Shown here: positions 54,082 to 57,431 of the stretch, in pieces
Position numbering within the stretch: position 1 is the stretch's first letter
Layout: every line of letters begins with the position of its first letter
Origin: Fimbriimonadaceae bacterium
Lineage (GTDB): Bacteria > Armatimonadota > Fimbriimonadia > Fimbriimonadales > Fimbriimonadaceae
DNA length: 64,000 nucleotides
NCBI GenBank assembly: GCA_019454145.1
Contig: CP075366.1
Location: forward strand, 413,564 to 477,563
Direction: 5' to 3'
The notes under the pieces: model-generated
Databases searched by the model: none
Seen by the model: only the letters and a program-made list of their open reading frames with translations
What the model was told of the DNA's origin: nothing
Made by a program: the position numbers and the translations under genes

Positions 54082-54122
54082 AAAGCTTCTCACTATAAAT
54101 CCTCTCCTAATCCTTCAGATAA

Positions 54123-54193
54123 GGTAGGGGCACTGAGCTTTAGCAGTGAAACCGCGTATTCGTGCCCCTACCATTCAAATTTGAATGGTAGGG
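54123..54193. repeat. Left arm of REP-like array flanking a RAYT gene
   Basis: Contains the word GGTAGGGGCAC at 54123-54133 facing its exact inverse GTGCCCCTACC at 54162-54172 across a 28-nt spacer. A perfect 28-bp palindrome follows at 54166-54193 (CCCTACCATTCAAA and its complement). The spacer holds a small hairpin, CACTG/CAGTG. The last word, GGTAGGG, ends 20 nt before the transposase start. Confidence 0.88.
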
Positions 54194-54213
54194 AGTAACA
54201 GGAACCTGGCTTA

Positions 54214-54759
54214 ATGGGTAAACGAAAGGATTATCTGGAAACAAATGTGGTCAGAGAAATTACTTTCTCTACTTTTAGGAAAACACATCTCCTCAGGGAT
54301 AGAGAATGCGCGCAATATGTCGAACAATCTTTGTTTGAGGCAAAGAGGAAATATGGCTTTCAACTCTTTTCTTATGTCGTGATGTCAAACCACGTTCATT
54401 TCCTGGTCATGCTTAATGAACCAACCCCAATTAGCTCGATTTTGAGTTCAATAAAGGGCTCCTCTGGGAAACAAATTCTAAAGCACCTCCGGTCAACGAA
54501 CCCGGGTTTGTTAAATGAAGTCGCAATCGTGAGGGATGAAAAGGTACGCCATCGAATCTGGTTGCCGGGCGGTGGATATGACCGTTCACTCAGAGATGAC
54601 CAATCTATTGAAAACGCGATTGACTATATCCACAACAATCCCGTTAAGGCGGGGTTAGTTAATACAGCCAATGAGTACGCGTTTTCGAGTGCAAAAGAAT
54701 TTTTCGAAGGTGACTTCTCCCGTATTGACCCAATGCCTCGTTTGAGTCGATTCGGGTAA
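54214..54759 (+). CDS. REP-associated tyrosine transposase (RAYT, Y1/IS200-like family)
   Basis: RAYTs are single-copy domesticated relatives of IS200/IS605 transposases that process REP hairpins. The histidine pair H60-x-H62 is in VVMSNHVHFLVMLNEP, the catalytic tyrosine lies in the ENAIDYIHNNPVKAGLV block, and the total length of 181 fits. Charged loops (KRKDYLETNVVREI) and the C-terminal FSSAKEFFEGD follow. The gene is boxed by inverted GGTAGGG/CCCTACC words. It is a mobile or genome-mobilising element on its own, inserted between the MmgE/PrpD gene and clpB. No target-site duplication was found. Confidence 0.92.
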   Translation: MGKRKDYLETNVVREITFSTFRKTHLLRDRECAQYVEQSLFEAKRKYGFQLFSYVVMSNHVHFLVMLNEPTPISSILSSIKGSSGKQILKHLRSTNPGLLNEVAIVRDEKVRHRIWLPGGGYDRSLRDDQSIENAIDYIHNNPVKAGLVNTANEYAFSSAKEFFEGDFSRIDPMPRLSRFG

Positions 54760-54850
54760 CCCCTACCTTTTGGAAAAGGTAAAGGGCACTGGCTCTTTAT
54801 CAAACGCATCATTAAGAACTCCCTACCTTTCTTTCAAAAGGTAGGGGCAC
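54760..54850. repeat. Right arm of REP-like array
   Basis: Four further words occur in alternating orientation: CCCCTACC at 54760-54767, GGTAAAGGGCAC at 54778-54789, CCCTACC at 54821-54827 and GGTAGGGGCAC at 54840-54850. The interval GGT...ACC spans 50 nt at 54778-54827, the same length as the left unit at 54123-54172. The last word ends four nt before the clpB stop codon. Confidence 0.85.
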
Positions 54851-54854
54851 GATG

Positions 54855-57431
54855 TCACGAGTTAAACGAAAACGCACCGTCAACATAATCCGCGACGATG
54901 TGCGAACCGTCGTGAATCTCGCCGCTCAGAACCTTCATCGCCAGCGGATTCAGAACCTCGCGTTGGATAGCCCGCTTGAGAGGACGTGCTCCGTAGACCG
55001 GGTCGTAGCCAGCGGTGGCGATCTGAGTTTTTGCCGCGTCGGTGAGTTCCAGCGTGATGCGGCGGTCGGCTAGCCGTTCGGAAAGTTGTTCCAATTGGAT
55101 ATCTACAATCCGCTTAATTTGGGCCACGCCCAGCGAGCGAAACACGATGATGTCGTCGAGCCGGTTGATGAACTCGGGCCGGAAGTAGTGGCGCATTTCG
55201 TCCACAACTTTGGCCTTGATTTCTTCAAACTTTTCCCCCTCCAAAAAGCCTTCGCCGTAATGGTGGCTACCGATGTTGCTGGTGAGGATGATAACCGTGT
55301 TTTTGAAGTCCACCGTTCGGCCCTGGCCATCGGTGAGGCGACCATCATCCAGCAGTTGGAGCAACACATTGAACACGTCCGGGTGAGCTTTTTCGACTTC
55401 ATCCAGCAGAATCACGCTGTACGGCTTGCGGCGAACGATCTCAGTGAGTTGGCCGCCTTCTTCATAGCCCACATATCCCGGAGGAGCACCGATGAGTCGC
55501 GAAACTGAGTGCTTTTCACCGTACTCGCTCATATCAATGCGAACCATTGCGCGTTCGTCATCAAATAGCAGTTCCGCGAGGGCCTTAGCGGTTTCGGTTT
55601 TCCCGACCCCGGTTGGCCCAAGGAACATGAAGCTACCAATCGGTTTGTTCGGATCGCTGATTCCGGCGCGCGACCGACGGATCGCATCGCTGAGGATGGT
55701 GAGGGCTTCATCTTGCCCGACGACCCTTTCCTGCAGTAGCGATTCCATGTGGATGAGCTTATCGAGCTCGCCCTGCATAAGCTTAGAAACGGGAACGCCT
55801 GTCCAGCGAGAAACGATTTCGGCAATGTCTTCTTCGGTGACTTCTTCTTTGAGTAGCACCGAATCGTCGTTTGCCGCAGTGGCATCAGCGAGTTGCTTTT
55901 CTAGCTTAGGCAGTTGCCCGTGTTGGATTTCTGCCGCGCGTTGCCAGTCGGTTTCTCGTTCTGCGGTTTGAAGGTCATTACGGAGCCGCTCAATTTCTTC
56001 TTTGAGTTCACGAAGACCCTCAATTTTGTCCTTTTCGCTTTGCCATTTCGCACGCATGGCATCAGCCTGTTCTTTCAGGCTAGCGAGTTTTTCTTCGGTG
56101 GTGGCGAGACGTTCCTTACTTGCCTCGTCCTCCTCTTTTTTCAGAGCCTCGCGATCAATTTCGTACTGGCGCATCTGCCGCTCCATCACGTCAAGTTCAT
56201 GCGGAACCGAGTCAATTTCGATTTTGAGCCGGCTGGCGGCTTCATCTACAAGGTCAATCGCTTTATCCGGGAGTTTACGGTCGGTGATGTATCGGTTGCT
56301 GAGCGTAGCGGCGGCAACAATGGCACTATCGGTAATCCGAACACCGTGGTGAATTTCGTAGCGCTCTTTTAGCCCACGCAGGATACTGATTGCTTCAGGA
56401 ACGCTTGGCTCGTCAACAATAACCGTTTGGAATCGCCGTTCCAGAGCCTTATCTTTTTCAACATAAAGCCGGTATTCGTTGAGCGTGGTTGCCCCAACGC
56501 AACGCAGTTCGCCACGAGCGAGCATCGGTTTGAGCATATTAGCCGCATCAAGCGAACCTTCGGCTTTGCCTGCGCCAACAAGTGTATGCATCTCGTCAAT
56601 GAACAAAATCACTTGTCCGGCCTGTTGTTTGATTTCATCAAGAACAGCCTTCAGGCGTTCTTCAAATTCGCCCCGAAACTTAGCACCTGCAACCAAGGCT
56701 CCCATATCAAGCGCAACGACGGTTTTTCCGCGCAAACCTTCTGGAACGTCACCAGCAATGATGCGCTGGGCGAGTCCTTCAACAACGGCAGTTTTACCAA
56801 CCCCAGGTTCCCCAATTAGAACGGGATTGTTTTTGGTTCGTCGGCTAAGAACTTGGATAACCCGTCGGATTTCTTCGTTCCGGCCGATGACCGGATCAAG
56901 TTTGCCTTGCCGTGCTCGGTCGGTCAGGTCAATGCCGTATTTTTCAAGTGCTTGCAGGGAAGTCTCAGCGTTTGCGTCGCCGATGTTGCGACCTTGGCGG
57001 ATTTCTTCGATAGCCTTGAGGATGCGCTCTTTGGTCACACCACCGTTGAGCAGGAGCTTGCCGGCACTGCCTTTGTCCTCGGTGAGCGCCAGCAAAATGT
57101 GATCAGTAGAAACATATTCGTCGCCCATTTTTGAAGCGGCATCAAATGCTTCATTGAACGCGGTTGCGGTTCTGGAGCCGATATTAGAACCGTATTGTGC
57201 GGCTCCGCTAATCTTTGGCGCCTGATCGAGAGCCTTGCGGGTTTCTTCTTTGATTGTGTTTGCCGAAACGCCGACTTTGTCCAGAAGGGCGGTGGTGATG
57301 CCTTCTGAATCTTGTAGCAACCCGAGAAGTAAGTGTTCGGGTTCAATAGATTGCTGTTGGAATTCCGTCGCAGCTTGTTGAGCGGACTGGAATGCCTCTT
57401 GTGCCTTGATAGTTAATTTGTCGAATCTCAT
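54855..57431 (-). CDS. clpB: ATP-dependent disaggregase ClpB
   Basis: ClpB with DnaK rescues aggregated proteins. The 858-residue protein has an N-terminal Clp repeat domain ([20 protein letters not shown]), NBD1 with Walker [16 protein letters not shown], a coiled-coil middle domain ([19 protein letters not shown]) and NBD2 with Walker [17 protein letters not shown]. The C-terminal domain ends [18 protein letters not shown] chose ATG at 57431 (MRFDKLT). An in-frame TTG at 57452 falls inside the HAIR operator. No Shine-Dalgarno sequence is seen. The gene is probably controlled by HspR. Confidence 0.97.

Follow-up and report, generated by a model that had tools for sequence, protein, structure and literature searches.

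The locus that occupies positions 54106 to 54850 of the window is very probably a REPtron, comprising a single-copy, vertically kept RAYT gene enclosed by REP hairpins of its own; further copies of the hairpin are dispersed in the genome. The window is the complete stretch of 64 000 nt that was analysed (G000:C1:413564-477563), and lies in the single 2.76 Mb contig of a genome of the Fimbriimonadaceae (Armatimonadota). The presence of a REPtron in an Armatimonadota genome was the substance of the original prediction. It is supported by the match of the gene to the RAYT model, by the dispersed hairpin and by the retention of the array at the orthologous RAYT gene of a sister species.

Organization of the RAYT locus

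Direct reading of positions 54100–54860 confirmed all seven positions of the repeated word in the original prediction. Exact copies of the word GGTAGGGGCAC lie at 54123 (+), 54162 (−) and 54840 (+), and shortened ones at 54187 (GGTAGGG) and at 54761 and 54821 (both CCCTACC). This is as had been described, except that the copy at 54778 is interrupted (GGTAAAGGGCAC) and that the real structure is one of four hairpins. The words are paired, CCCTACC being followed close by with GGTAGGG, giving four units around the RAYT gene with the consensus 5′-GTGC followed by CCCTACCTTTG-loop-CAAAGGTAGGG. GTGC (GCAC on the opposite strand) is located at one foot only of each of the four units. Since this tag lies beyond the stem on a single side, each unit has an orientation. 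The features are as follows.

54106–54133, − strand: REP unit 1; left arm decayed (CCTAATCCTT), GGTAGGG arm, and GCAC at 54130–54133, which is the GTGC tag on the − strand; the matching place in the sister species has an intact hairpin.
54162–54193, + strand: REP unit 2; GTGC tag at 54162–54165 and a perfect 28-nt palindrome CCCTACCATTCAAATTTGAATGGTAGGG; the sister keeps the hairpin with a changed loop.
54214–54759, + strand: RAYT gene; 181 aa, with NHVH at 59–62, WLPGGGYDR at 116–124, catalytic Y138 and NPVKAG at 142–147; assigned from NF047646, Pfam, AlphaFold2 and dN/dS.
54761–54789, − strand: REP unit 3; right arm damaged (GGTAAAGGG), GCAC tag at 54786–54789; the sister has a better preserved copy (CCCTACC...GGTCGGGGCAC).
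54821–54850, − strand: REP unit 4; CCCTACCTTTCTTTCAAAAGGTAGGG and GCAC tag at 54847–54850; conserved in the sister.

The hairpins lie close to the gene. Unit 2 ends 20 nt 5′ of the RAYT start codon, and unit 3 starts one base past the stop. The gene is thus flanked by inverted REPs, with the tag of unit 2 on the + strand and those of units 3 and 4 on the − strand, and the same arrangement is found in the sister. The stems are damaged in two of the four units. Inspection by eye of the neighbouring ORFs indicates that the upstream one is presumably of the MmgE/PrpD type and that the downstream one, on the other strand, is presumably clpB.

The sister species is represented by the Fimbriimonadaceae MAG ACE_ARM7 (JAHBTE010000001.1; G004), whose RAYT protein is 86% identical. 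The same four hairpins are present around this orthologous gene in the same orientations, with changes in the loops and linkers, and the tie between the words and the RAYT gene is therefore kept in the sister. Several finer points of the original prediction need correction. The orientation of the words does alternate, yet this is automatic and forms no independent pattern, because each pair of opposite words makes up a single hairpin, one word per arm. Two spans of the array are each 50 nt as reported, but the matching spans in the sister are 72 and 46 nt, so that the equality is a coincidence. The A+T-rich, nearly palindromic character ascribed to the linkers applies in its first part to the hairpin loops, which are A+T-rich, whereas the linkers between the hairpins are not palindromic. 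A structure of seven independent words in 50-nt units was consequently rejected.

The RAYT protein and its relatives

The product of the ORF scores 90.9 bits against the NCBIfam model REP_Tyr_transpos (NF047646), for which the cut-off is 80, and its Pfam match is Y1_Tnp. In an alignment with 29 relatives the HUH motif H60-V-H62 and the catalytic Y138 are present, T17 near the N-terminus is invariant and the sequence NPVKAG (142–147) conforms to NP(L/V)(R/K)xG. A conserved N-terminal threonine and NP(L/V)(R/K)xG are hallmarks of RAYT proteins (PMC2817692). An AlphaFold2 model based on an alignment of 30 relatives has a pLDDT of 93. For both fold and sequence the best match in the PDB is 4ER8, in which the E. 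coli RAYT is complexed with a REP hairpin. The dN/dS of the gene relative to the sister is 0.15, compared with 0.02 for two neighbouring genes. The RAYT gene is therefore under purifying selection and less constrained than its neighbours. It is present once in the genome and is syntenic in the sister. A scan of named genomes with the protein gave no relative besides ACE_ARM7, and a search of plasmids gave a single match, 37% identical, in Bernardetia.

These properties are hard to reconcile with an ordinary IS200/IS605 element whose terminal hairpins persist at other sites as MITE-like remnants, a reading that we regard as barely credible. The IS200/IS605 transposases do share the HUH/Y1 fold, the catalytic residues and a guide tetranucleotide 5′ of a hairpin, and the IS200 model gives 32 bits for the protein. 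However, this falls far under the cut-off of 55, whereas the RAYT model passes, and ISDra2 and IS608 are more distant in fold than 4ER8. The model score and the fold comparison led us to reject this explanation. Moreover there is no multicopy element here, only one copy at the same place in both species.

The REPtron closely resembles those of the gammaproteobacteria (E. coli, 4ER8; Stenotrophomonas; Marinomonas) (PMC2817692, PMC8266576) in having a single-copy Y1 HUH gene, inverted tagged palindromes that are also dispersed intergenically, the N-terminal threonine, catalytic tyrosine and NP(L/V)(R/K)xG, and a four-base tag directly 5′ of the hairpin. It differs in that the tag is GTGC in place of GTAG or GTGG, and in that the loop reads WLPGGGYDR where theirs reads WQPRFWEH. 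It further differs in its perfect stem with a variable loop, its Armatimonadota host and its low copy number.

Two other RAYT-like genes are present in the genome. RAYT2 (G000:C1:823303-823767, L017; sister copy G004:C1:1868755-1869222, L145) encodes a protein of the same glycine-loop clade (see below) that is 37% identical to the first RAYT. It has an in-frame TAG near its end; the frame is open in the sister. It is boxed by GTGG-CACTGGTT...AACCAGTG hairpins, of which there are 12 exact-pattern copies in the genome, and together these form a second, separate REPtron. The third gene (G000:C1:528067-528537, L243/L244) lies outside the window and encodes 157 aa. At the place of the HUH motif the protein reads EKTE, and the catalytic tyrosine is replaced (WEAILSSPVD). 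Both histidines and the tyrosine were lost in 30 of 30 members read, where the region was covered. This gene was found in all 37 Fimbriimonadaceae genomes searched, with 37–100% identity, and in none of 24 genomes from other families of the order. Its dN/dS relative to the sister species is 0.04. Judged from its sequence the protein is a catalytically dead relative of RAYT, and is possibly a domesticated DNA- or RNA-binding protein.

Dispersed hairpins in the genome and in related species

The original prediction called for further copies of the word, and these are found dispersed, mostly between genes. There are 15 exact copies of GGTAGGGGCAC in the genome compared with one for the reversed control pattern and 1.2 expected from composition. 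A pattern that excludes the tag, CCCTACC-N4-24-GGTAGGG, gives 18 sites compared with one control site. In 13 of these 18 hairpins the adjacent tetranucleotide is GTGC, and no other tetranucleotide occurs more than twice. The stem pairs covary, with 15 cells changed on both sides and none of 500 shuffles as high, in an alignment gathered with the word, for which the tag columns are circular and the inner stem less so. G–U pairs are tolerated in the stems.

There are ∼31 hairpins in total, that is ∼27 beyond the four at the RAYT gene, which is few for a REP family. According to a crude ORF model, at least 28 of the 31 sites lie between ORFs, with 11 of these between convergent ORFs. The family has the character of a REP in being a 20–40 nt palindrome with dispersed copies that are mostly between genes; the 5′ tag, on the other hand, is GTGC and not GTAG or GTGG. 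A total of 24 GTAG-tagged REP families have been described in eight phyla (PMC3733652). They too are 20–40 nt palindromes with a one-sided, unpaired tag, occurring as singles and dimers that are mostly intergenic. However, their tags vary at positions 2 and 3 (GYAG, GTRG, GTMG, GTGG), whereas here it is the fourth base that is C. Most of the dispersed sites are single hairpins, with few pairs (for example 105791/105895 and 2104511/2104573), so the REPIN (a mobile inverted pair of REPs) was rejected as the main unit.

The positions and G–U pairs of the hairpins would also suit terminators or mRNA-stabilizing elements that were multiplied for the benefit of the host, with the RAYT gene among them by chance, since many lie in gaps between convergent genes (11/28). 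Yet a terminator has no use for a GTGC tag on one side, and the boxing of RAYT genes by cognate tagged hairpins recurs throughout the phylum with different stems (see below), so that we consider this very unlikely.

Of the 31 sites, 21 are common to the sister and 10 are unshared. Comparison of the ten unshared places with the sister genome gave no clean empty site of a single REP. Two are simple indels; that at 391031 is a 36-nt palindrome lacking the tag and that at 145283 a block of ∼160 bp, and neither can be polarized. All ten differences may reflect loss from the sister. These data raise the question of whether the system is a relic, with REPs that have stopped spreading and a RAYT turned to host functions such as the binding or trimming of REPs, or control of its own transcript via units 2 and 3. 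The number of shared sites, the damaged stems at the gene, the small number of copies and the retention in the same bacterial family of a RAYT relative without catalytic residues are all consistent with this. Set against it are the intact catalytic residues of a constrained gene, and the ten unshared sites with their two simple indels, although loss in the sister explains the latter equally well. We view a relic as possible but somewhat doubtful.

Covariance-model searches, with up to 150 candidates scored in each of eight genomes of the genus, gave 54 matches in the genome under study and 38 in the sister, most hairpins matching on both strands, and 0, 0, 0, 1 and 1 in five congeners. The exact hairpin family is thus nearly absent from congeners without this RAYT. 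The remaining congener, G002, gave 11 weak matches among the candidates scored. Those inspected are mostly a different dispersed hairpin, GTGC-CCCGACCCTTCAGGGTCGGG (loci L080, L088, L091, L094 and L100), and no RAYT of the glycine-loop clade was detected in that genome. These hairpins are either an orphan REP family, or their RAYT falls in an assembly gap. Their presence weighs against the REPtron reading, as do the small copy number of the hairpin under study, the departure of its tag from GTAG or GTGG and the failure to find a clean empty site among the ten unshared places.

Two further observations concern the surroundings of the hairpins. On comparing G000:C1:105700-106020 with G004:C1:2614310-2614530, a gene end and REP appear to be duplicated in the former, giving two REPs with tags that face each other where the sister has one. 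It may show how pairs of REPs originate. Another dispersed repeat, approximately CCCTCCCCAAG-CTTGGGGAGGG and then GGGTGGGGTTGA, often adjoins the GTGC REPs and lies within the same unshared blocks. Many of its loci are near REPs (for example L004, L005, L007 and L012), and no gene has been linked to it.

The GTGC tag and the glycine-rich loop

A search of the phylum with NF047646 gave a match above the cut-off in 111 of 255 genomes, placing the Armatimonadota on the map of RAYT proteins. The sample comprised 118 distinct proteins from 128 loci, and all 256 tetranucleotides beside hairpins in the RAYT flanks were counted. Ranked by the number of loci, GTAG, GTGG and GTGC come first; they account for 33, 22 and 21 of 762 hairpin ends, respectively, with ∼3 expected for each. 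When the tag and stem upstream of the gene had to match those downstream, GTGC remained at nine loci, GTGG at nine and GTAG at seven; TGCC, which ranks higher in the raw list of boxed tags, is GTGC read one base in. Boxing of RAYT genes by cognate tagged hairpins is thus found repeatedly in the phylum, the stems differing in sequence.

In a quick maximum-likelihood tree the proteins with W-x-x-G-x-G-[YHF]-D-R form one clade of 32 (SH-aLRT 98). The boxed tags of this glycine-loop (WQxGGGYDR) clade are GTGC (nine), GTGG (six) and GTAG (none), while those outside it are GTGC (none), GTGG (three) and GTAG (seven). Fisher tests of clade against tag give p = 0.0002 when GTAG is compared with the rest and p = 0.003 for GTGC, or 0.0007 and 0.005 with near-identical orthologues merged; as the members of a clade are related these values are too small and are used descriptively. 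GTGC and GTGG are intermixed within the clade, and inspection by eye revealed no obvious residues predicting G or C at the fourth base. We found no literature report of RAYT or REP in Armatimonadota or Fimbriimonadaceae, nor of a GTGC-tagged RAYT, in a search that covered few subscription papers. What goes beyond the systems already known is the tag GTGC, which is probably new, together with its link to the glycine-loop clade. All families underlying one published genome-wide search for REPs carry GTAG or GTGG (PMC6006769), and GTGC REPs would therefore escape it.

The glycine-rich stretch coincides with the tag-reading region of the E. coli enzyme TnpA-REP. Residues W94, Q95, E100, H101 and R104 have been discussed for recognition of GTAG (PMC6006769), as have Q95, position 100 and R104 for recognition of the tag (PMC8266576). 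In a pairwise alignment these five correspond to W116, L117, D123, R124 and R127, with one extra residue in between owing to the glycine-rich stretch. The loop thus differs at the place where the E. coli enzyme reads its tag. This suggests that GTGC is a guide read by the glycine-containing loop, and the co-occurrence of the two points to the changes of loop and tag belonging together. In E. coli, however, the last two bases of the tag are contacted by two residues of the C-terminal tail, G160 and E161 (PMC8266576), and reading of the fourth base may therefore take place outside the loop.

E. coli TnpA-REP acts on single-stranded REPs, forming a Tyr-5′-phosphate link, and is able to transfer strands (PMC8266576). 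If the RAYT works like its counterparts in E. coli, Stenotrophomonas and Marinomonas, it would bind a folded single strand with 5′-GTGC at the foot of the CCCTACC...GGTAGGG hairpin, and nick beside this hairpin through Y138 with a metal held by H60 and H62. The ends would then be joined or re-primed, leading to spread of the REPs at a low rate. Binding, nicking, strand preference and mobility are thus all properties that we infer from these relatives.

We tentatively suggest that the WQxGGGYDR-loop clade of the Armatimonadota moved the REP guide from GTAG to GTGC or GTGG, with GTGC in about seven lineages; this is quite possibly correct, though far from assured. In the published guide model GTAG chooses CT via bases 3 and 4, or CA via bases 2 and 4 (PMC8266576). 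Applied to GTGC, the same rule predicts a choice of GC or GA. If both the proposal and the model hold, then GTGC enzymes should cut at GC or GA and not at CT, and the clade would exemplify natural re-targeting of RAYT cleavage by a joint change of loop and tag. Changes to the last two tag bases block cleavage by the E. coli and S. maltophilia enzymes and redirect it in a Marinomonas enzyme (PMC8266576). A natural clade in which the last tag base and the tag-reading loop are both changed would make the choice of cut site by the tag directly testable.

A dispersed GTGC family is also found in another family of the order, where genome G040 has 17 copies on five contigs, with none for the control. 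In the same genome six GTGC-CACGGGCAAC hairpins are arranged head-to-tail with a spacing of ∼40 nt downstream of a glycine-loop RAYT (L054:2060-2279).
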